A stretch of 64,000 bases of DNA. Source: Psilocybe azurescens. Its lineage: Eukaryota; Basidiomycota; Agaricomycetes; Agaricales; Agrocybaceae. Shown here piece by piece: positions 4,984 to 62,276 of the stretch; position 1 is the stretch's first letter; each line of letters begins with the position of its first letter. The stretch spans positions 434,001 through 498,000 of the forward strand of contig JAJIRX010000829.1 of NCBI GenBank assembly GCA_023853785.1, in the 5' to 3' direction. Both the position numbers and the translations under genes were made by a program. The notes beneath the pieces are model-generated. The model was not told the DNA's origin. It saw only the letters and a list, made by a program, of their open reading frames with translations, and did not search any database.

Positions 4984-5390
4984 GACAAGTGTAAAAGCTG
5001 CTGATTGCTAGGCAGATAGTAGTAGTGCAGGTTACAGTATTTATAACAGTGTTTCTATGAGATAATTTTAGTGCAGGTTATAGGATTTATAAGAGTGTAT
5101 AAGATAAGTTTAGAACTCACCGCTTGTGTGAGCGCGATTCGCTTGTTTCTTTCCTTTCTGAGGTTTCTTACTTCCAGAGAGTCCCTTTTGTTGCCAGCAG
5201 CGAGATGGCGCAATACCGCACCTATCGCGATCATTGATGACATTTAAAACTGAAGGCAAAGTCAAATTCAAAGAGAACATGGCTTCAGATGTAAATTAGT
5301 CCTAGGGTCAATGGTATGATAGCAAATCACGGATCATTACTCTTGTCTTGATCTCAGGGATCGAAAGAAATAAGAACAAAAAACACAAGT

Positions 5391-5492
5391 GTCGGTAGCT
5401 GGAATCGAACCAGCGGCTCTTCGGAGTTATTCAGGCAACATAATGTCACCAGGTACCACAACGAAGTGATTTAACCCCTAATCGATACTGAC
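5391..5492 (-). tRNA. tRNA-His (GTG), with intron
   Basis: Read on the minus strand, the sequence folds as a cloverleaf. It has a D arm (GATT/AATC), an anticodon stem CTTCG/CGAAG with loop TTGTGG and anticodon GTG, and a T arm GCTGG-TTCGATT-CCAGC. The intron follows position 37. The segment around CTTCGTTGTGG resembles eukaryotic tRNA-His. The acceptor stem GTCAGTA/TACCGAC has one A.C mismatch at the fourth pair, which could mean partial decay or a sequence error. Confidence 0.83.
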
Positions 5493-13498: not shown

Positions 13499-13706
13499 GG
13501 TAGACAAGAAACCAGACGGAAACACGGTTGAGATTTCCAAAAGAATAGGACACGTTGACAGCTTTTAGGATGTCGTGTCCCTGTCAAAAATCATGAGTGC
13601 CTTGGAGTAGTTTGAGTCAAGCCAAGTGAAGGCTAGAATGACAGAATTCGGTTCAAATTACATAAAAGAATGTGATGGACGTGGGAGCACCCAAGACTAA
13701 CAAAAA

Positions 13707-13791
13707 TGGTCCAATCCAGGATCGAACTGGAGACCTTCTGTGTCCCTTAACAAATGTAAGACAGAAATCATAACCACTAGACCATTGGACC
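13707..13791 (-). tRNA. tRNA-Val (TAC), intron-containing, left copy
   Basis: On the minus strand it has an acceptor GGTCCAA/TTGGACC with discriminator A, a D arm with AGTGGTTA, an anticodon stem TCTGT/ACAGA with loop C-T-TAC-A, a 12-nt intron after position 37, and a T arm TCCAG-TTCGATC-CTGGA. The 5' half resembles yeast tRNA-Val(UAC). It is identical, intron included, to the + strand copy at 13899-13983. Confidence 0.92.
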
Positions 13792-13898
13792 GATGACAGA
13801 ACTGTGCAGCAATAATGATGGATCTAGAGGCAGCCCAGAAAGGACATAAATTTGATTGGGCGCGGAAGCGCTGGAGCCTGCTAATACGTCCATTCGTT

Positions 13899-13983
13899 GG
13901 TCCAATGGTCTAGTGGTTATGATTTCTGTCTTACATTTGTTAAGGGACACAGAAGGTCTCCAGTTCGATCCTGGATTGGACCA
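13899..13983 (+). tRNA. tRNA-Val (TAC), intron-containing, right copy
   Basis: This is the exact reverse-complement partner of the 13707-13791 gene, with all 85 bases identical including the 12-nt intron. It has the same acceptor, TAC anticodon and T arm, and is followed by a T6 run that could terminate RNA polymerase III. The pair is transcribed divergently from a 107-bp spacer. Confidence 0.92.
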
Positions 13984-14760
13984 TTTTTTGCCAAATTCAT
14001 GCGCGATTGCTCTATCTTGAATTATCGTTTTGACTACGAAAATCTGGCCCGACTTCCTATGCTGGGCCACCTCCTAACAAACCACGACTGGTCCTAACAT
14101 CCAGATCCAACTTCTTACACCGAGTGAAATGGAGTATATTTGACGGGGAAACCGTCTTCACATTTCTACTGCATTTGCTGCCTGAAACTCCTTCAAGATG
14201 GGCCAGATTTTCACCCAAAAGGGGCAAATTTTGATGTTGCAATCTTATTTACATCTATTTTACTTACTAGTGGTATTGATGCGTCTATGTGTATTGCAGG
14301 AGATTGCAGGAGTATCATCTGATCATTTTCAGAAAGTAATGAGAAGGTCACTGAGAGACGGGGATCAGCATTCTGCTTAAGAATAGATGCTGTGGTATTA
14401 TCTATTCTTAGACTTCGCTGGATAAGCTCGACGCAGGTGGAAATGTCATGTATTTAGTGAAATGGAGCCTTTCCATTCCTATCCATAAGATGCCACTCAT
14501 TTTGTATATTTACAAGTGTACGCCTCATGTGACAGCAAACTAGGACAGGAATGTCGAGCCTATGTCTAGTATGGCTGAGAACCTTTTCGTTCAGAGATAC
14601 TAATAATAGCAGCCTTTTGCTTGAATAGAAGATGCTCCTCTAGTTCTACCCGACTTCAACCATGCTACCTCTGAATTGTTATGGTGTTTGCCATTACATG
14701 CGGTTTTCTGTACAAATACATCTTCCTGCGAAAGATAAAACTGTTGAATCTATGGTGCAA
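13984..14760. other. Intergenic, nothing recognised
   Basis: Short open frames only. No exon, RNA or repeat could be supported between the tRNA-Val gene and the P450 remnants. Confidence 0.45.
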
Positions 14761-41998: not shown

Positions 41999-42165
41999 GC
42001 TTTATGACCCGCCGCTACACGTCGGGGGGATTCGCTCGCTCACCCCCTGTGCTTCACGGCAGGGTCAACAGCTTGCTGGGGCTGCGCCCCCAGACCCCCG
42101 CTTTGTCGGCGCCCTGCGCCTCCTCATTGAAAAATAAATAATACCAATTACAATTATTATATTTT

Positions 42166-42191
42166 GGGGGAATGAGCTTCACTCATCCCCC
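42166..42191. repeat. Hairpin in repeat unit 1 (first of three)
   Basis: An inverted repeat of the type GGGGGA-ATGAG...CTCAT-CCCCC, imperfect by one unpaired A. Its counterpart in unit 2 is at 44680-44705. Confidence 0.75.
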
Positions 42192-42245
42192 CTTTTTACT
42201 GACACTCCATGTCTCATGAAAATAATAATAATAGCAGTCACTCTT

Positions 42246-42270
42246 GGGGGATGAGCACAGCTCATCCCCC
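42246..42270. repeat. Perfect hairpin in repeat unit 1
   Basis: GGGGGATGAGC pairs fully with GCTCATCCCCC around a 3-nt loop. The counterpart in unit 2 (44759-44781) keeps a 10-bp perfect stem around a different triplet loop, TGT, so the stem is conserved while the loop changed. Confidence 0.85.
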
Positions 42271-42296
42271 TGCTTCACACCCCTAATATAATGTGT

Positions 42297-42326
42297 GGGA
42301 GGGGATGAGCTGCGCTCACCCCTCCC
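42297..42326. repeat. Hairpin in repeat unit 1 (third of three)
   Basis: GGGAGGGG-A-TGAGC pairs with GCTCA-CCCCTCCC around a TGC loop, with one bulged A. The counterpart in unit 2 lies at about 44811-44840. Confidence 0.75.
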
Positions 42327-44520
42327 CCTACTTCACAGCCTGCCCTACAGCTTGTTGGGGTTGCACTCTTCCATCCCACAATGGAGGCACACAGCATCTT
42401 CATAGTCAGATTATATACACTCAGTCAATAACAGTGAACAAATACACAAATATTTATACACAGCACTCTATATTCTGTGTCCATTAAATTTCTTTTGCTT
42501 CAACAATCTCAAACAAAAATTTTAAACCATATTAAACCCATTCCAACTAATCCACAGTACCTTTGCCACCATGTCTGTTTTAATATTCATACCCATATCC
42601 ACTCCCAATCAATCATTATTCTACTTTATATTTTATACAATACTGCACTACTCATTTACTATCTATCACTCACCTCATAGGCACAGCACTATAGATGTCA
42701 TGCTATTTTAAATTTCATAGCTTACACTCTTTCTCTTCACAACCAAAATATCTGTCTCTACACCCTACTACTTTAATTCTACAAAATTTAATCACATCAA
42801 TCTACACCCTATAATACATTACAATCTAAAATCAATTTTCATAACATATCACAGGCATTCACCTCACTCACCACTTCTGCTTCATCCTCAGGCCTACATC
42901 TTATCACTGCTCCATCTCTCTATCTCACTATAGACATTTGTAGCACCTCCATACTCACTTTTTTTTTTACTGACCATCAATAACAGTGAACATTTCTGTC
43001 TCTATCTAACAATCTCACAAATCTCCAACCAAAATTTAAAACCATATTACACCCACTCCAATTAATCCACCACAACTTCACCCCTGTACTCAGTCAATCT
43101 ACATCCCTGCCCATCACCACTCCCAATTATTTGCCAATTATTGCCTCTATTACTTATAATACTTGACTGCTCATTCATTACCCACCAACATCTTGATATG
43201 CACAGCACCTGTGGCGCTGTGCTATTTTAAATTTTATAACTTGCACTTTTTTTCTTCAAAATCCAAATAGCTGTTCTCAGCCCCCACCACTTTGGTCCTG
43301 TAAATGAATTAATCACATCAATCTATATCCTATAGTACATTAAAATTCAAATGTCAATTCCCACTCCTAATAGTTAACACTCTCTTTAATTTTACCCACT
43401 ACATGGGCAAAGCATACTCCAGCTTTATTCTCAAATATTAATTTTACTACCTATACAGCACTGTATATCACCTATTTTCAATTACAAAGGCATGTCTCAG
43501 TGCTATCTTTCTATCCAAATCTTTATTTAAATAACACCCACACATCCACAAATCCCCCTGCTGCTATGTGTCAGTCATAAAGCTAGACAGCACAGTGCAT
43601 CTGGGATTTGCTAAGTTGGTGCTCTACACCTCCATACCAAATATAATGTCAATATTTCATCACTTCACCCTTCCTATGTCTAATGAAAAACATTTGGGTA
43701 TGTCTCTACAAAAGCATGCCACCTTTAGCGCTATGTCCACGCTACTATGTATACATTTCCACAATATATCCCCAGCCCACTCTTGAACAATTATTGTGTA
43801 GATTACTTGTAATAACATTCTTTTGCATAGAGAACTGGAATATTCTACTATGCACAGCACCTGCAGCACTGTATCATTTTAAAATTTACAGATTGCACTC
43901 TTCACAATTAAATTTTAAAATAGCTGTCCCCTGACCTTTCCCATTGTAAAATTGTGTCCCAGTGCTATCTTTCTGTCTACACCTTTATTTAAACAGTTCC
44001 AACTATAATTCATTTCATACTAACCTTTCCACTGTCCACAATGCCCCTTGTTTTGATATTTATTTAGTTGTATTTATTTCAGCCTTTTAACTCTTTTATC
44101 CAATACATAGTCTCCATTACAAAGGTGTCAACCAACCACAATATCTGCAGACAGAAATGTCCCATTCAAATAGTCTTTGACACAGATTTATTGATCCACT
44201 TGCTCATAGTGCACTGTGCACTGTGCATGCAAGAGTGTGCATATTTGTTTGTTTTCAGAGCCACCCAAAGCAGCTTCAATACAGCTGGGTATGGCTAATA
44301 GACACATTGAGGGTTCATTATTTAAGCACAGAATGTTTTCCAGGCTTTGTGGCACCCATTTTGTTGTTTGCCATTAGCCTCTGGTTGTTTGTTTCAAAAG
44401 GTCCCGTAGTGCCGGCCCCAAAACACAATAGTCTGCTTAATAATAATTAGTCATGATTAGGTAACTTGATTCTCCTTTTCGGGTAACCTTAGTCATCGTG
44501 CTCTCTTATATTATAGACGA

Positions 44521-47016
44521 GCTTTATGACCGCCGCTAGCGTCGGGGGATTCGCCGCTCACCCCCTGTGCTTCACGGCAGGGTCAACAGCTCGCTGGGGC
44601 TGCGCCCAGACCCCGCTTGTCGGCGCCTACGCCTCCTCATTGAAAAATAAATAATACCAATTACAATTATTATATCTTTGGGGGAATGAGCTTCGCTCAT
44701 CCCCCTTTTTATTGTCACTCCATGTCTCATGAAAATAATAATAATAGCAGTCACTCTTGGGGATGAGCTGTGCTCATCCCCCTTGCTTCACACCCCTAAT
44801 ATAATGTGTTGGAGGGGGATGAGCTGCGCTCACCCCTCCCCTACTTCACAGCCTGCCCTACAGCTTGTTGGGGTTGCACTCTTCCATCCCACTATGGAGC
44901 CACACAGCATCTTTATAGTCAGATTATATACACTCAGTCAATAACACTGAACAAATACACAAATATTTATACACAGCACTCTATATTCTGTGTCCATTAA
45001 ATTTCTTTTGCTTCAACAATCTCAAACTAAATTTTTAAACCATATTAAACCCATTCCAACTAATCCACACTACCTTTGCCACCATGTCTGTTTTAATATT
45101 CACACCCATATCCACTCCCAATCAATCATTATTCTACTTTATATTTTATACAATACTGCACTACTCATTTACTATCTATCACTCACCTCATAGGCACAGC
45201 ACTATAGATGCCATGCTATTTTAAATTTCATAGCTTACACTCTTTCTCTTCACAACCAAAATGTCTGTCTCTACACCCCACTACTTTAATTCTACAAAAT
45301 TTAATCACATCAATCTACACCCTATAGTACATTACAATCTAAAATCAATTTTCATAACATATCACAGAGCATTCACCTCACTCACCACTTCTGCTTCATC
45401 CTCAGGCCTACATCTTATCACTGCTCTATCTCTCTATCTCACTATAGACATTTGTAGCACCTCCATACTCACATTTTTTTACTGACTGTCAATAACAGTG
45501 AACATTTCTGTCTCTATCTAACAATCTCACAAATCTCCAACCAAAATTTAAAACCATATTACACCCACTCCAATTAATCCACCACAACTTCACCCCTGTA
45601 CTCAGTCAATCTACATCCCTGCCCATCACCACTCCCAATTATTTGCCAATTATTGCCTCTATTACTTATAATACTTGACTGCCCTTTCATTACCCACCAA
45701 TATCTTGATATGCACAGCACCTGCAGCGCTGTGCCATTTTAAATTTTATAACTTACACTTTTTTCTTCAAAATCCAAATAGCTGTTCCCAGCCCCCACCA
45801 CTTTGGTCCTGTAGATGAATTAATCACATCAATCTATATCCTATAGTACATTAAAGTTCAAATGTCAATTCCCACTCCTAATAGTTAACACTCTCTTTAA
45901 TTTTACCCACTACATGGGCAAAGCATACTCCAGCTTTATTCTCAAAATTTAATTTTACCACCTATACAGCACTGTATATCACCTATTTTCAATTACAAAG
46001 GCATGTCTCAGTGCTATCTTTCTATCCAAATCTTTATTTAAATATCACCCACACATTCACAAATCCCCTGCTGCTATGTGTCAGTCATAAAGCTAAACAG
46101 CACAGTGCATCTGGGATTTGCTAAGTTGGTGCTCTACACCTCCATACTAAATATAATATCAATATTTCATCACTTCACCCTTTCTATGTCTAATGAAAAC
46201 ATTTGGGTATGTCTCTACAAAAGCATGCCACCTTTAGCACTATGTCCATGCCACTATACATTTCCACAATATATCCCCAGCCCACTCTTGAACAATTATT
46301 GTGTAGATTACTTGTAATAACATTCTTTTGCATAGAGAACTGGAATATTCTACTATGCACAGCACCTGCAGCAATGTATCATTTTAAAATTTACAGATTA
46401 CACTCTTCACAATTAAAATTTAAAATAGCTGTCCCCTTACTTTTCCCATTGTAAAATTGTATCCCAGTGCTATCTTTCTGTCTACACCTTTATTTAAACA
46501 GTTCCAACTATAATTCATTTCATACTAACTTTTCCACTGTCCACAATGCCCTCTGTTTTGATATTTATTTAGTTGTATTTATTTCAGCCTTTTAACTCTG
46601 TTATCCAATACATAGTCTCCATTACAAAGGTGTCAACCAACCACAATATCTGCAGACAGAAATGTCCCATTCAAATAGTCTTTGACACAGATTTATTGAT
46701 CCACTTGCTCATAGTGCACTGTGCACTGTGCATGCAAGAGTGTGCATATTTGTTTGTTTTCAGAGCCACCCAAAGCAGCTTCTATACAGCTGGGTATGGC
46801 TAATAGACAAATTGAGGGTTTATTATTTAAGCACAGAATGTTTTCCAGGCTTTGTGGCACTTATTTTGTTGTTTGCCATCAGTCACTGGTTGTTTATTTC
46901 AAAAGGCGCCGCTTTACAGGCCCCAAAACACAACGGTGTGCTTTGTCATGATTAAGTAACTTGACTTACATAATTTGGTTTTTCCTTTTTAGAAACCGTC
47001 CTCTCTTATATTATAG
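44521..47016. repeat. 2.5-kb tandem non-coding repeat, unit 2
   Basis: The second unit, in the same orientation and about 2496 bases long, differs from unit 1 by scattered substitutions and small indels. Hairpins are at about 44680-44705, 44759-44781 and 44811-44840. It ends in a short GATA microsatellite (about 47013-47026). Confidence 0.9.
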
Positions 47017-54342: not shown

Positions 54343-56055
54343 AACATGAATGCAAGGCTGAGGGCAGTGTCGTGAATGGATGGGCAGGATATTAATAGGT
54401 CGAAAGTCATGAATGGATGGACAAGATAATAATAGGTCGAAGTGCATATAAAGTCTAGGATTTGCGGGTACTGTCATTTCTCCCAGGGCTGGAACCCAAA
54501 ATCATTCTTCCTGTAGCTGGTCTACAAAGTCGTCACTCGGCGCTTAATTGTTTGGTTTAAGGCAAGTCCATTTGGCATGTTGTACAGGCTTACATCTAAT
54601 GAGATTGTTGCTCTGTGATATCAGAATTCACCAATATGTTACATAAGTTAATCATCATACAGATCCTATTAGGTGCCGTGTCATTTGGATTACCAGCACC
54701 AGCGCCCGCTCCAGTTGTTGCCGGCGATATCATTCTAGCGAGGCCAAAGAATTATGATAATCCTATGCCACGTCAGGTGAGTATCTCTAGAGCATTTCCT
54801 GATCTCTTTTGGACGAGCGCTGATGATCCACGGATACTAGGGAAAGGTTGGCTACCATCCCGCCGTCGCCCTCACCAACCCCGACGAACATGGGAACATC
54901 AAAGTCGCACCAATCTCCCATGACCATCCTATGAACCCCCGACCGTACCGATCTCGCAATTTAACATTAACCTTCCTCCTTCTGAGGGAAAGGGTATTGG
55001 AACTGTCAATGTAGCGACTCCAGCGACTGTACATATGAGCAATGTGAAACTTTCGAAATCGCTCACCAGAGTGGAGCCATACCACCTTGAGGCTCTCAAG
55101 GCCGTGATCCGTGAGTTCTAACGCACAGTTCATGGTTCAGTCAAACGATCATAATTAATCATAATTATCTAGGCAAAACCTGCGGTGATCATGTAGTACG
55201 AAGGAGTAACAATGCTCATCTTGATCCGTGAGCACTTCAATTTCAGTTCACGTTATCCATCTGTCTGAGAGTCCTTGGAAAATAGATGCGACAGAGCAGC
55301 GATGGCACAGGCGGCTCGTGCTGGCGGTCAGGTCTGTCATTTTTATGTGGTATTCATGCTCTGTGACCATAATCTTATATCATAAACCAAAAAAGGCAGG
55401 GAGCCATCCGCGAAAACCGATTGGAAAAAATAAGAAAGAGGCACAGAATAAATCCACGGCAGGTCATTCCAATGGTCCGCACAATGGAGGATCAACTCAC
55501 AGCGCACAAGCTGGACATTCTGGCACCCGGCACTCGACCCCCACAGTGCTCATGCTGGATCCCCCGGTGGTTCCCATCACTCGGGCGCTCACAACGCACA
55601 AGCTGGTGGTAGTACTACTCACTCACCATCTCACAATGCACATGGTGGACATTCTAGTAGCCCGCATCACACGAATTCCCACAATGTACATGCCGGACAT
55701 TCTAGCGGCACTCACCAGTCGAATTCTCATACTGCGCATTCTAGCGGCGCCCACCATTCGAATACTCACAAATCGATTGGGAGTACCCATCACTCGAGCA
55801 CCAAAAAGCATTGAAGACTGCTGCATCGGAAGCGTATTTCATTTAACGTTATTGTTAATACTATGCCTCCGTCGTTTCCCAGATTTTCGCGTTGCAATAA
55901 CATGTATCTGATTCTGTCTGATCGTGTAATACCTTCCTTTACTCACGTACCGACGGGTATCGTGAGTACCAATTGGAAGCAAAAGAAGCGCTTTTATCGT
56001 AGCTCTTAATATGAAGCGGTGAGCAGGAGGAATCCGGGAGGACTGGCTTGTTCTA
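54343..56055. repeat. Left arm of large inverted duplication
   Basis: This arm matches the reverse complement of about 58560-60230 over its whole length, with scattered substitutions and small indels. At the outer end both arms share CATGAATGCAAGGCTGAGGG or its complement. At the inner end they share GAACAAG.CAGTCC and GGATTCCTCCT.CCACCGC in complement. Similarity stops abruptly on both sides. The arm carries one complete gene and about 290 bp of its upstream region. Confidence 0.9.
54636..55814 (+). CDS. Secreted His/Ser/Gly-rich protein with GDI...VAPISHDHP core, left copy
   Basis: The ATG at 54636 opens a signal peptide (MLHKLIIIQILLGAVSFGLP), then a Pro/Ala linker and AGDIILARPKNYDNPMPRQ. 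After a 64-nt intron (54777-54840) the core continues GKVGYHPAVALTNPDEHGN and IKVAPISHDHP, then VPISQFNINLPPSEGKGIG and VEPYHLEALKAVI. Further exons lead to a basic stretch (PRKPIGKNKKEAQNKS) and a tail of HSNGPHNGGSTHSAQ-type repeats rich in His, Ser, Gly and Asn, ending STKKH. Two C5 runs (54936-54940 and 55538-55542) each need one more base to keep the frame, and the same runs occur in the right copy. The core resembles the spacer gene at 56996. The pattern GDI...HPxVxL...G...VAPxS is loosely like PemK/MazF-type beta barrels, but that is speculation. The His-rich tail could bind metal. Confidence 0.72.
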
Positions 56056-56995
56056 TAACCCCTGTCAAAACCCACTGTAGCACTGGTGGGAACCAACACG
56101 TCATAAAATGTCATAGAACTGTTTTTTCTGTTATCTAAGCCCCGATAACAAATGTCATCAACGCCAGCCAACGCCGTTTTATACTACCACGAGACTGCCT
56201 CGTGTACTGTCCCGAGTCCCTTAAGATCACAACGTTTGACACCAAAGAGCCTGGATTAGAGAAAGTTTATTATAAAAACGGTTCGCGATTGGTTTATGGA
56301 TTTGAGTGACCTTATCTCGGGTGGTTAAGACCATGAACTTCAGCGATGGGAGTAATTATAGCAACAGTTTTTTCCATCCGCTTGACAGATGCCCCTCTAT
56401 GTCCATAGGGCTTTCGGTCTAGCCAATCTTGAGGCGGGGTATCCGCATAGCATTTCAATTGTCAGTGCCAAATCAGTGTGTTTGGGGTGACTGTTACAGT
56501 GTAAACATCGCCCTGGTCTGCCATTTTGAAACTCGAGCATCGATACTATCAGCCGAGCCACAGGCTTTTCTGCCTTCCGCCTACAGCCGATGCTCCCGAT
56601 TTTTGGGGGATTCAGACTTCAGAGGAACAAACGTGAACCCTGTCAGGCTAAAAATGTCTGAATGGGCATCTCCCCACGATAATCCTCAATTTGAAACCGC
56701 GGATAGTCCGTACATATAAGATCATGATATTATCGACGAGCTCTTCACCGACCTCTAAAGCTAATCTGGTCCCCGGTTATGCTTCGAGATTGAGACGTCC
56801 CCCTCCTCCCAAAATCGACGACCTCCTCCACTTCCTGGTCCCACAACACCTTGTACGTGCTCACTTTCAGTTCACCGTCGTCGGTCGACCACTAATCAGA
56901 TAACTTTGTACAGAATGTTCATTCATCCATAATCTCCATATCATATTTGTTCTACATTCGTTTTGCGTTGCCTATATCTTATATCTACTGTAATA
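56056..56995. other. Left part of the spacer, upstream of the family gene
   Basis: This single-copy sequence between the arms has no supported exon. It presumably contains the promoter of the gene starting at 56996. Confidence 0.45.
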
Positions 56996-57531
56996 ATGCC
57001 TTCCGCGAGTCCTACATCGCCAACCGCACCGTACTTCCTAAAAGAGGGGGACATCATGAAAGCAAAGCCGAAACATTTTATTCCAAGACCAGAGAGCGTG
57101 GTACGTTGGAAGGCGGCCTGTCTCGCTTTGCGCATGGCCTAACGAGAATCGTCACAGGGAAGCGTCGGTCAACACCCAGTGATCGTCCTCACGAGGCCCG
57201 ACTCTCAGGGATTCGTTTTGGTGGCTCCAATGTCCCATAATCACCCGGAGGGCACTCCAACTAGAAGCGCGTCGAGATACGGTCTCCCCGTGGATCCAAT
57301 AAAAGGCGAAAGCCGAGTGAACGTTGGCCAGCCCAAAGTTGTTCATCAAGATAATCTTAGAGCTAATAAACCCTACACTACCATGGCGTATAATCATTTC
57401 GCAGCACTAAAAGCTGACATCTGTAAGTCATTCTTCATCCAATCGAATGTGTGCGATGACGCTGACAACGAATACGGAATATAGCTAGAAATCTCCAGCA
57501 TCTCCATCATTTCCAGCATATGTCTTACTGA
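56996..57531 (+). CDS. Small GDI...VAPMSHNHP family protein (non-secreted type)
   Basis: The ATG at 56996 starts MPSASPTSPTAPYFLKEGDI, then MKAKPKHFIPRPESV. An intron (57101-57157) shows a CTAAC branch-point-like box and a CACAG end. The second exon reads GSVGQHPVIVLTRPDSQGF, VLVAPMSHNHPEGTPTRSAS and RYGLPVDPIKGESRVNVGQP, to HFAALKADI. A second intron follows (GTAAGT donor at phase 1), then a short His-rich end, ...LQHLHHFQHMSY, at 57531. It is about 150 residues, with no signal peptide. Introns 1 and 2 sit at the same places, in the same phase, as in the two His-rich genes in the arms, so all three share ancestry. No enzymatic motif is recognised. This gene reads through cleanly with no frame break. 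Confidence 0.75.
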
Positions 57532-58054
57532 ACTTTCATGTCCACTCTCGCCTCTGTGGGGCCATCTCGATCGATCTGTGGCGCAGGTTGCCTTTTTGAA
57601 CAAGCGAGTCTTGCACGATATTTGCTTCACGACTCGGAACGAGTACTATACACGTCCTATAATCCTCAAGTTGCTGATACACTACCAAAGTCTAATAGTA
57701 ATCTACGGAATCTCGATGATTCTGTATAATATCCCAAAATTATTGTACAAACATGTAATTCTATCCTTATTAATTTCAGAAAGCTTTGCAGATCTAGCTG
57801 AAACATAAGATGATAAACGAGGAAAGATTTATTCCATGTGAGGTGACCTGGTTGCCCATCTCTTGTTTCAGGTGAGCAATCTATAGCTGCAGATCCTGTC
57901 ATCGCATAATTATGGGGCAGTGATTCTGGAGCATATACCCCTAGCACTATAAATAGATAAAATAACCGTACTGTGAAAAACAAAATCTACTAGGCCTCAG
58001 TGTTGCTTGGCCTCAAGGAGGACTCTATTTATCGAATGGAGATGGGCAAAAAAG
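57532..58054. other. Spacer between family gene and tRNA-Arg
   Basis: An AT-rich stretch, mostly with short frames. A run-on frame to about 57808 is hydrophobic and lacks motifs. Nothing is supported. Confidence 0.45.
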
Positions 58055-58150
58055 AACCGACGGTGGGGATCGAACCCACAACCTCTGCCTAACCGGATGC
58101 GCTACGTGCTCCAATAGGAAAGCAACGCACTACCATTGTGCTACGACGGC
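58055..58150 (-). tRNA. tRNA-Arg (CCT), intron-containing
   Basis: On the minus strand it has a D arm GCAC/GTGC with AATGGTA, an anticodon stem TTGCT/GGCAG (two G.U pairs), loop TT-CCT-A, a 24-nt intron after position 37, and a T arm GTGGG-TTCGATC-CCCAC. The D arm and CCT anticodon loop resemble yeast tRNA-Arg(CCU). The acceptor GCCGTCG/CGTCGGT has a G.U first pair and one T.T mismatch, so it may be weakly diverged or carry an error. It lies in the spacer of the inverted duplication. Confidence 0.72.
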
Positions 58151-58559
58151 TGTTATAAACGGAATATTCTAATACAGCTGACTTCACAGAAATGTTTTGT
58201 GGGTCTGTTAGATTGAATTTATTACCATTTTGGGCAAAATCATAGACCGGGTAAATGTATAGTACGAGGGAGGGGAATTGTTTTCTATGAAAGGGTACTG
58301 AGAGAGTTTAAAGGACCCAGTGTCAATATCAGTGGTAGTATCTCCAAGCAGTTGGAGATCAGACTCGTTTAATGCTTTGTGCCTGGGCGCCTATTATTCA
58401 GCACCCATGAATTTAATCGAAGTAGTCTGAGCATACATTGGTACCATTTTACGTCCCTTACACCATAGTCGAAGATTTTTTAATGTTTGATGCTGTTCAG
58501 ACAAGAGCTCCAGACAGACAGCGATGGAATTTCGCACATTATGATTTGTATCAACTTGC

Positions 58560-60230
58560 TGAACAAGTCAGTCCCTCGGGATTCCTCCTACCCACCGCTT
58601 TGTATTAAAAGCCATGAGAAAAGCATTTCATTTTCTTCCAATTGGTACGCACGATGCCCGTCGATACGTGAGTAAAGGAAGGTATCACACCATCAGACAG
58701 AATCAGATACATGTCATTGCAATGCGAAATCTGGGAAACGACGGAGGCGTAGTATTAACAGTAACGTTAAATGAAATACGCTTCCGATGCAGCAGTCTTC
58801 AATGCTTTTTGGTGCTTGGGTGATGAGTACTCTCAGTCGATTTGTGAGTATTCGACTGGTGAGTGCCGCTAGAATGTCCAGCATGTACATTGTGAGAATT
58901 CGTGTGATGCGGGCTACTAGAATGTCCACCATGTGCATTGTGAGATGGTGAGTGAGCAGTACTACCACCAGCTTGTGCGTTGTGAGCGCCCGAGTGATGG
59001 GAACCACCGGAGGATCCAGCATGAGCACTGTGGGGGTCGAGTGCCGGGTGCTAGAATGTCCAGCTTTTGCGCTGTGAGATGATCCTCCATTGTGCGGACC
59101 ATTGGAATGACCTGTTGTGGATTTATTCTGTGCCTCTTTCTTATTTTTTTTTTGTCGGCTTTCGCGGATGGCTCCCTGCCTTTTTTGGTTTATGATATAA
59201 GATTATGGTCATAGAACATGGATATCACATAAAAATGACAGACCTGACCACCAGCACGAGCCGCCTGTGCCATTGCCGCTCTGTCGCATCTATTTCCAAG
59301 GACTCTCAGACAGATAGATAACGTAGATTGAAATTGAAGTGCTCACGGATCAAGATGAGCGTTGTTTCTCCTTCGTACTACATGATCACCACAAGTATTG
59401 CCTAGATAATTATGATTAATTATGATCATTTGACTGAACCATGGACTGTACGTTAGAACTCACGGATCACGGCCTTGAGAGCCTCAAGGTGGTGTGGCTC
59501 CACTCTAGTGAGCGATTTCGAAAGCTTCACATTGCTCATATGTACAGTCGCTGGAGTCGCTACATTGACAGTTCCAATACCCTTTCCCTCAGAAGGAGGA
59601 AGGTTAATGTTAAATTGCGAGATCGGTACGGTCGGGGGTTCATAGGATGGTCATGGGAGATTGGCGCGACTTTGATATTCCCATGTTCGTCGGGGTTGGT
59701 GAGGGCGACGGCGGGATGGTAGCCAACCTTTCCCTATCCGTGGATCATCAGCGCTCGACCAAAAAAAGATCAGGAAAAGCTCTAGAGATACTCACCTGAC
59801 GTGGCATAGGATTATCATAATTCTTTGGCCTCGCTAGAATGATATCGCCGGCAACAACTGGAGCAGGCGCTGGTGCTGGTAATCCAAGTGACACGGCACC
59901 TAATAGGATCTGTATGATGATTAACTTATGTAACATATTGGTGAATTCTGATATCACAGAGCAACAATATCATTAGATGTAAGCCTGCACAACATGCCAA
60001 ATGAACTTTCCTTAAACCAAATAATTAAGCGCCGAGTGACGATTTTGTAGACCAGCTACAGGAAGAATGACTTTGGGTTCCAGCCCTGGAAGAAAAGGCA
60101 GTACGAGAACATCCTAGACTTTATATGCACTTCAACCTATTATTATCTTGCCCATCCATTCATGGCCTTTGACCTATCAATATCCTGCCCATCCGTTTAT
60201 AACACTGCCCTCAGCCTTGCATTCACATGA
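58560..60230. repeat. Right arm of large inverted duplication
   Basis: This is the reverse-complement counterpart of 54343-56055, separated by a spacer of about 2.5 kb. It differs from the left arm by scattered base changes, a 3-base loss at the end of the first intron of the gene it carries, and a loss of about 39 bases in the His-rich repeat. Confidence 0.9.
58799..59936 (-). CDS. Secreted His/Ser/Gly-rich protein with GDI...VAPISHDHP core, right copy
   Basis: This is the inverted twin of the 54636-55814 gene. The ATG at 59936 gives MLHKLIIIQILLGAVSLGLP with one Phe-to-Leu change in the signal peptide. The same exon order follows, and the stop is at 58799-58801. The first intron's acceptor lost three bases but still ends in AG. 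The His-rich tail is one repeat unit (about 39 bases, 13 residues) shorter than in the left copy. The two C5 frame sites of the left copy recur at the same positions. Both genes point toward the spacer. The shared state means either both copies carry the same inherited lesion or the assembly under-called the same run twice. Confidence 0.72.
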
Positions 60231-62276
60231 ACTTGATCCGAACAGTGGTACTTTCCAACTGTTTTAGCCACTGCATTCATGATAGCGAGTATTCTCGTAC
60301 AGGAAGTTCAAACAACATGATGGGTGCGAGGGAGGGCTATCCTGTAAGCGTCAAACGGGGAAACGAAAATGATGGTCTCGAAATGACTGCATCCGAGGGC
60401 AAAACAGACAGAGTTAACTCCAAAAGGGCTGTCCTGTGATATACTTACCGGATGAACAATCTTGAGAAAGTCGTGCAAGAACGTGGATCAGAATGAAGAT
60501 CGTACTCATCGAAAGAACCACCGAGTGAGATTGTCAAGGGTGTTGGTGAACATAGCATTCGGCGGACATTTTGACATATCGGCAATCGAGCATTTGTAAG
60601 CGAGGATGTAGGCTCTTTCGCCGTTCGGCGGATGGCTACTTTCCCACGGACCAACACCACCAACGCAAATGATCTAGCCTCAATAGCAGATTGTCAGGCA
60701 GGCTGTATCCTCACCACCAGCGCGTTTTTTCAGACACAGACGCCCTCCTATCCCGTTGGAATAGCCTCAGGCACAAGTCCGATGTCCCCAGAAACCGCAG
60801 CGCCTCTCATACATCTTTAGCTTTCGATGATGGTCGTACTCAGCTGTTGCTCTACTAACATGGGCTTCTACCCTCAGCCATCGTCAGCCTATAACATCAT
60901 CGTGGCTGTTTGGATCACCCACGAATATCTTCGGCTGCCTGGTTCCGACAAACGACATGCTTGTTAAGCCCGGAAACTATGTCGATGTGAGTGGAAAGTG
61001 TAATGTAGAGCACCAGCATTGGGGGCGGAAAAATGAGGTTTGTTCTCTTCAAGTTCTAGTCCGTATTATTTCTTTTAATATTGGTCTTCAAAGGGTTGTA
61101 GTCCTATCTGCGCGCTCTCTTCAAGATCACTAAGATCACTTCTTGCTGAGAGACGGCGGTGGGTTGATGTAATCGTGGGTTGGTGAGTACGGGGAGAAGA
61201 ACTGCTTGTCGCACAACAGTGCAGGCGGGAGCGAATACGCGCCCGCAGTAGCAGAGCGCCTGTAATGATGATGGTGCGAGTTGTACATTGTTGGGATTCT
61301 GAATAGTCCAACGGGAGATTTGCGAGAGTATAATTCTGTTTGCTATCGGCATTGACTCACCATCATTCTCATGAACTCATGCCGCCAACAGCATGTCGTT
61401 TTGTGGATGTAAGTGTAGTGTAGGTGACACTGACGATGCGGGCATGAGCATGGGTATCCGCCACCTCTACTTGCTCTCCTGCTCTGCCGCTCGCGCTTGC
61501 CCGTGTCATTGGCAATGCCGCTGCGAATTGTACTATACTATCTGCAATTGCCGGCGCTGTGGGTGGGATAGGAATAGAATCTCCTAGTTTCTTGTGGTTG
61601 GACGACCAGCGCGTGAGTCGCAACCTTTCTATCATGCAATGGCAATTTTTTTTGCGTTAGGACATCTCACTTACAGCGGATGCTTACATTGGATCACCTA
61701 AAAATTACTCGGTTATCAAAATGTTTTGAAAAGCAAGTTGAAGAACAGCTGATCAAATCCGTCTCTTCTGAGATCGCCGACTTAGACGGTGGTATCAAAT
61801 CACGAATGCTTCGTGCGGTCGACGGCCTCTTCAAAGGAATATCCGAGAGGGCTAACTCTAAAAGACTGCGGATATCTGATAGAAAGTTCGACGGGCGCCT
61901 AAATAGGACAGCCTTAACATCCGAACTTCGAAGGGTCCGGAACAATCTCACTATTTTGAGAGAGCCATATAATGTCGACGGCATTTCCAAAAGGCGATGA
62001 TAGTAGTCGGTTGCGTCAGTAGGACACCTTAGCATAGAAAGTCCTGAGGCAATCTCACTATTTTTAAATGAACCTTGTACCGGGGAGGGCAATGATAGTA
62101 GTAACTATAATACAACTACATACCTTGACCGTATCATATTTCACGACTTTCAAGGGAACAGGAACCAACGGCAGTGCTAGCTTGTGCTATATAGTACCAC
62201 TCGCATGCTTGATAATCCATATAGCACATTGCGTCTGACACAATTCAAACCCGACTATAGCGACCCTCTTTACTAG
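60231..62276. other. Region without firmly supported genes
   Basis: Frames at about 60632-60820 (a short Thr/Ser/Ala-rich frame) and 61680-62000 (a charged frame with ISDRKFDGRL) are the longest but match nothing I recognise. A short duplicated block (CAATCTCACTATTTT plus a following GATAGTAGT) occurs near 61940-62000 and 62045-62100. Confidence 0.4.

Follow-up and report, generated by a model that had tools for sequence, protein, structure and literature searches.

How did three related genes come to lie in one palindrome, and what do they encode? The question is raised by a 64,000-nucleotide stretch of a Psilocybe azurescens contig (JAJIRX010000829.1, positions 434,001 to 498,000; hereafter the window), in which two inverted arms, each carrying one gene with a signal-like N-terminus, enclose a spacer with a third, signal-less gene. 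Our preferred reading, to which we assign a probability of about 0.6, is that a secreted, His-tailed gene with a MazF/PemK fold would have been copied in inverted orientation to both sides of an older signal-less relative and a transfer RNA (tRNA) gene in this Psilocybe-like mushroom.

The inverted repeat and its spacer

The sequence bears out the inverted repeat, which has the following parts.

54347..56053, plus strand: left palindrome arm (inverted-repeat alignment, assembly search, arm-arm alignment)
58561..60225, minus strand: right palindrome arm (inverted-repeat alignment, assembly search, arm-arm alignment)
56054..58560, no strand: single-copy spacer (inverted-repeat alignment, assembly search with the spacer)

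Segments 54347-56053 and 60225-58561 align as six inverted pairs that almost abut and are 86-97% complementary, and the arms are 94.2% identical over 1663 ungapped columns. Apart from one 95-bp tRNA pair, the arms are the only inverted repeats of at least 80 nt found in the window (seed 14), which excludes a chance origin. When the 70.4 Mb assembly was searched with the left arm, two matching places were found, the arm itself and the right arm, and no third copy. Corresponding searches with the spacer, the left flank and the right flank gave no second full-length copy of any of them: the left flank has no match elsewhere, the spacer has a single partial match in a tRNA-like stretch just past the right end of the window (contig C713, 498020-498124), and the right flank is matched in part on C477 (79%) and at other places on its own contig. 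The original prediction of two inverted arms of about 1.7 kb around a single-copy spacer is thereby upheld. The right-flank similarity on C477 lies between window positions of about 60706-61131 and 832343-832807 of that contig, at 79%.

The same searches bear on whether the palindrome is a product of assembly, either through the inverted joining of one arm's two haplotype copies or through a fold-back read. We regard this as very unlikely. The arms differ in 5.8% of the ungapped columns, too many for a fold-back read, and that artefact is dismissed; the joining of haplotypes is opposed by the assembly, which holds no second full-length copy of the spacer or a flank. A collapsed haplotype at the palindrome is possible, and no second assembled haplotype was seen in the searches with the spacer and flanks. 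The palindrome looks like a young local duplication of an ordinary kind.

Anatomy and condition of the three genes

The exons of the two arm genes, the spacer gene and the tRNA gene are as follows.

54636..54776, plus strand: left arm gene exon 1, coding for the signal-like N-terminus and the GDI strand (arm alignment, hydropathy, P. cyanescens P0015)
54841..55110, plus strand: left arm gene exon 2, coding for the MazF-like core, with the frame broken at the C run 54936-54940 (reading frames, arm alignment)
55173..55227, plus strand: left arm gene exon 3 (reading frames, arm alignment, P. cyanescens P0015)
55286..55331, plus strand: left arm gene probable exon 4 (arm alignment; DP-C junction like that of Flammula P0026)
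55400..55814, plus strand: left arm gene probable exon 5, coding for the Ser/His-rich tail, with the frame broken at the C run 55538-55542 (reading frames, arm alignment)
59796..59936, minus strand: right arm gene exon 1 (reading frames, arm alignment)
59464..59733, minus strand: right arm gene exon 2, with the frame broken at the G run 59634-59638 (reading frames, arm alignment)
58799..59175, minus strand: right arm gene probable exon 5, coding for the Ser/His-rich tail, with the frame broken at the G run 59032-59036 and the T run 59144-59153 (reading frames, arm alignment)
56996..57531, plus strand: spacer gene for a signal-less protein of predicted MazF fold, exons 56996-57100, 57158-57422 and 57485-57531 (reading frames, family search)
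58054..58150, minus strand: tRNA-Arg (CCT) with intron, in the spacer (Rfam and the ARAGORN intron mode agree)

The arm genes point inward, and both encode MLHKLIIIQILLG...GDIILARPK...HPAVALTNPDEHGNIKVAPISHDHP. The Kyte-Doolittle maximum over nine residues is 2.83 at the arm N-terminus versus 0.19 in the spacer protein, and the arm proteins, with this predicted signal, are probably secreted. The reading frames and hydropathy thus agree with the earlier claim of a signal and a GDI...VAPISHDHP core in both inward-pointing genes. The spacer gene has an uninterrupted frame from ATG to stop. The arm and spacer genes share the positions of intron 1, which precedes G-x-VG-x-HP in phase 0, and of intron 2, which follows LKxxI in phase 1, the phases being read by eye. 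The three genes are related in sequence and share these two introns, and the unrelatedness that would have spoken against one family was not observed; the claim that all three have the same two introns falls short only for the arm genes, whose introns number four if the His tail is part of the gene.

Past exon 3, the arm genes most likely have two further exons, a short one and a final Ser/His-rich one, and all four introns of the left arm gene are bounded by GT...AG. Flammula alnicola P0026 (254 amino acids) has the core, the DP-C junction and the His-rich tail as in the arm genes. P. cyanescens P0015 (156 amino acids) terminates at the DP-C junction, where the next splice donor seems to have been taken, in its gene model, for part of a TGA stop.

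The frames of both arm genes are broken, which the original prediction did not mention. The core is interrupted at a five-C run (54936-54940 left, 59634-59638 right) and the tail at a second one (55538-55542 left, 59032-59036 right), and the right arm has one extra break at a ten-T run (59144-59153). Such breaks at identical places in both arms, together with the third in the right arm and the weak constraint on exon 3 and the tail, are what would be expected if the genes had decayed before the duplication, leaving two pseudogene copies around a working spacer gene. We consider decay unlikely, however, since all five breaks fall at homopolymers of at least 5 and the assembly is poor in long C runs. 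In 242 kb of it (the window and 18 further stretches), runs of at least 6 were compared with the expectation from a first-order model, giving 5 versus about 28 for C, 18 versus 28 for G, 64 versus 80 for A and 91 versus 81 for T. Two further family genes of the same assembly, on C529 and C758, likewise break at homopolymers as read by eye, and their P. cyanescens counterparts (P0016 and P0029) are open, as is P0015 for the arms. Because long C runs are scarce in the assembly and the P. cyanescens copy is open, undercalled homopolymers, i.e. sequencing errors, are likelier than decay and would most likely account for the arm breaks. An intron hidden behind the core break was also sought by eye, non-exhaustively, and no GT...AG pair of usable length joined both frames while sparing the conserved core. 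The homopolymer deficit is also strand-asymmetric, with C runs depleted and T runs not, which is odd.

The divergence between the arms also bears on decay. Exons 1 and 2 differ by 1.4% and 1.9%, introns 1 and 2 by 4.9% and 4.8%, and the flanks by 8.3% and 10.5%; divergence in the core exons is thus lower than in introns and flanks by a factor of about 2.5 to 7, contrary to decay. In the frames used, exons 1 and 2 together have 5 synonymous and 2 non-synonymous differences, and exon 3 in its spliced frame has 3 and 2. The core looks constrained in both copies, and the tail not clearly so.

Several observations on the frames and tail weigh against the preferred reading. The homopolymer deficit is uneven across bases (G 18/28, A 64/80, T 91/81), so that the five arm breaks are not all equally well explained and some doubt stays with the sequencing-error account. 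The arm divergence of exon 3 (8.5%) and the tail exon (5.1%) suggests lower constraint than in the core, and the right-arm tail exon carries a 39-base deletion relative to the left. Tail differences counted in the His-rich frame are 2 synonymous versus 8 non-synonymous before the break, part of them in a poorly aligning stretch of the arms, and 3 versus 6 after it. A second tail frame is stop-free on either side of the break as well, and the His-rich frame was therefore chosen because of its likeness to Flammula P0026.

The spacer tRNA-Arg was overlooked by ARAGORN in its default mode. The tRNA-like stretch at C713 498020-498124 is 78% similar to it.

The gene family and its tree

The spacer protein as query retrieves 14 proteins at an expect value (E) of up to 0.001, and the arm protein retrieves one, P0015, at E up to 1; a profile of seven sequences yields 42 proteins at E up to 10, 30 of them at 4e-21 or better. 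The named hosts are Psilocybe, Gymnopilus, Agrocybe, Cyclocybe, Hypholoma, Flammula, Phlegmacium and Crassisporium, genera that we take to be Agaricales. Two more members are present in the genome itself, on C529 (61% to the spacer protein) and on C758 (32%). The latter (202065-202970) combines a signal-like N-terminus and a MazF-like core with a proline-rich tail of LYDDLPPPK repeats, and P. cyanescens has two proteins of this type, P0029 and P0031. The tails thus vary among paralogues, being His/Ser-rich in the arms and Flammula and of the LYDDLPPPK type in P0029 and P0031. A ninth genomic place, on C808 (E 1.87), is inside a repeat and probably a chance match. Hypholoma sublateritium P0006, signal-less and 74% identical, is a direct homologue of the spacer protein. 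Its UniRef name begins 'Type II toxi'; this toxin-antitoxin-like name, given earlier by a source, is probably automatic. A search of one open-access library, which does not cover all print, turned up no paper on the fungal family.

The main tree comprises 29 rows and is unrooted; it was rebuilt without the C758-type proteins, which occupied a branch of length 3.8 in the first tree. The left and right arm genes are sisters (support 97/75; 96/84 in the first tree) and group with P. cyanescens P0015, the metagenome protein P0030 and Flammula P0026 (98/95), whereas the spacer gene, within the signal-less group, pairs with P. cubensis P0001 (98/97). The three genes are one family, with arms and spacer gene on separate branches. 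The branch that divides secreted from signal-less proteins of several genera has modest support (80/81, 74% of bootstrap trees), and two of its labels are weak: P0030 is counted as secreted with its N-terminus missing, and the metagenome protein P0023 as signal-less despite a hydrophobic N-terminus (3.04), which perhaps comes from an unspliced gene call. The first tree, which includes the C758 branch and leaves P0030 unlabelled, requires two changes of the secreted label.

A clade of the arms, P0015, the spacer gene and P0001, the latter protein and P0015 having been put into it after the first tree had been viewed, is rejected by the approximately unbiased test (p-AU 0.0002); for a clade of the arms, P0015, P0030 and the 13-row spacer-type group, p-AU is 0.025. 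Given this rejection and the placements of the arm and spacer genes, the arms did not descend from the spacer gene, nor did this lineage gain secretion around it. The arms belong to an older secreted clade that includes P. cyanescens and Flammula. On the unrooted tree, gain and loss of the signal are indistinguishable. The history proposed at first, in which an intracellular ancestor of the spacer type gained a signal and His tail and was then duplicated, retains its inverted duplication of the arms and loses that ancestor. Of the events at the locus, the arm duplication alone looks recent.

Predicted fold and possible function

Fold searches with predicted models of two database relatives, P0002 and P0015, gave 50 listed matches each, all with MazF-type titles, and a MazF/PemK fold is thus predicted from these models over nearly the whole protein. 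The family had been described as one that could not be named; the predicted fold places it with MazF/PemK. In E. coli MazF, the conserved blocks GDI, HPxxVL, VAPxS/T and the final helix are collinear with those of the fungal family. MazF-type proteins are known as toxins of bacteria and archaea, and MazF works as a dimer. Compared with bacterial MazF/PemK/Kid (PF02452), the fungal genes are spliced and nuclear and include signal-bearing versions with low-complexity tails, and the family remains below the Pfam cut-off, has His for the catalytic Arg and carries an extra invariant His after the Thr position.

PMC10893535 gives Arg25 and Thr48 as essential in B. subtilis MazF, and reports that R29A and T52A cost MazF-sth most of its activity. 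The Arg of the MazF RPAVV strand (R25 in B. subtilis, R29 in MazF-sth and, by alignment, R29 in E. coli) aligns on the His of the fungal HPVIV strand. At the Thr position (T48 in B. subtilis), in a register extended by eye from the alignment, Ser is found in 21, Ala in 2 and Gly in 2 of 25 rows, and the following residue is His in all 25. With a loose pattern, both histidines are present in 30 of the 31 proteins P0001-P0031, the exception being P0011, which begins downstream of the first, and no weak match among the 12 (P0032-P0043) has the pair. These two invariant histidines, at or next to the MazF catalytic Arg and Thr positions, may stand for a catalytic pair that has changed or for one that has been lost, and for this reason we do not file the family as MazF toxins.

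Loss of catalysis would mean that the fold is used to bind protein, cell wall or nucleic acid, and that the secreted form is metal-binding or wall-associated via its His/Ser-rich tail. This is a serious possibility, though we incline against it. It would agree with the replacements at both catalytic positions, at which alanine removes most MazF-sth activity according to the same paper, and with the differing tails of the paralogues; the invariance of both histidines across very divergent members is, however, beyond the needs of a bare scaffold.

The sequence searches count against the preferred reading. No Pfam match reaches its cut-off and the sole NCBIfam match has E 0.13; PF02452 matched 2 of 15 members at all (E up to 10) and scored at best 17.1 bits against a gathering score of 23.1 (10 proteins). 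A six-frame search of the genome with PemK_toxin gave no match, and the hhalign probability with MazF is 12.5%. Likewise, the catalytic Arg is absent, with His there in 25 of 25 rows of alignment A5. Among solved structures searched by sequence, the best match (E 0.77) was an alpha-mannosidase, by chance, and a defence library gave one weak match for 25 family members scanned.

If the preferred reading holds, the function would be RNA binding or cutting, exported in the case of the arm proteins. The spacer protein would be a small intracellular RNA-binding protein or ribonuclease, the arm proteins would be exported RNA-binding proteins or ribonucleases, and their His-rich tail may bind metal or surfaces; if RNA is cut, this would be via the two invariant histidines. 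The ribotoxin-like proteins of mushrooms (ageritin and kin), small RNA-cutting proteins of Agaricales, offer an analogy for a possible defensive role.

A set of secreted toxin and immunity protein could also be imagined, in which the arms export His-His MazF-fold ribonucleases in doubled dose and the signal-less spacer relative pairs with them to protect the producer. The pairing is proposed because MazF is a dimer, and we give the scheme very little credence. No MazE/AbrB-type antitoxin match lies above cut-off in the whole genome, one being at chance level (E 0.79), although other types and spliced genes could escape such a search. Dose control or a self/non-self role, offered as a speculation in the original prediction, finds no support.

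Elsewhere in the window, a C-biased, AT-rich unit of about 2.5 kb occurs twice, head to tail, at positions 42000-46900; one copy has 186 matches in the genome, many of them about 95% identical, indicating a dispersed repeat family. The 95-bp inverted repeat at 13702-13988 (98% complementary) consists of two tRNA genes in opposite orientation, assigned to Lys by ARAGORN in default mode and to Pro with an intron in intron mode, and the latter mode also places a tRNA-His with intron at 5389-5492 on the minus strand.

A spliced fungal family with a predicted MazF fold, occurring with and without a signal and carrying His at the catalytic positions, would be a new branch for tests of RNA cleavage.

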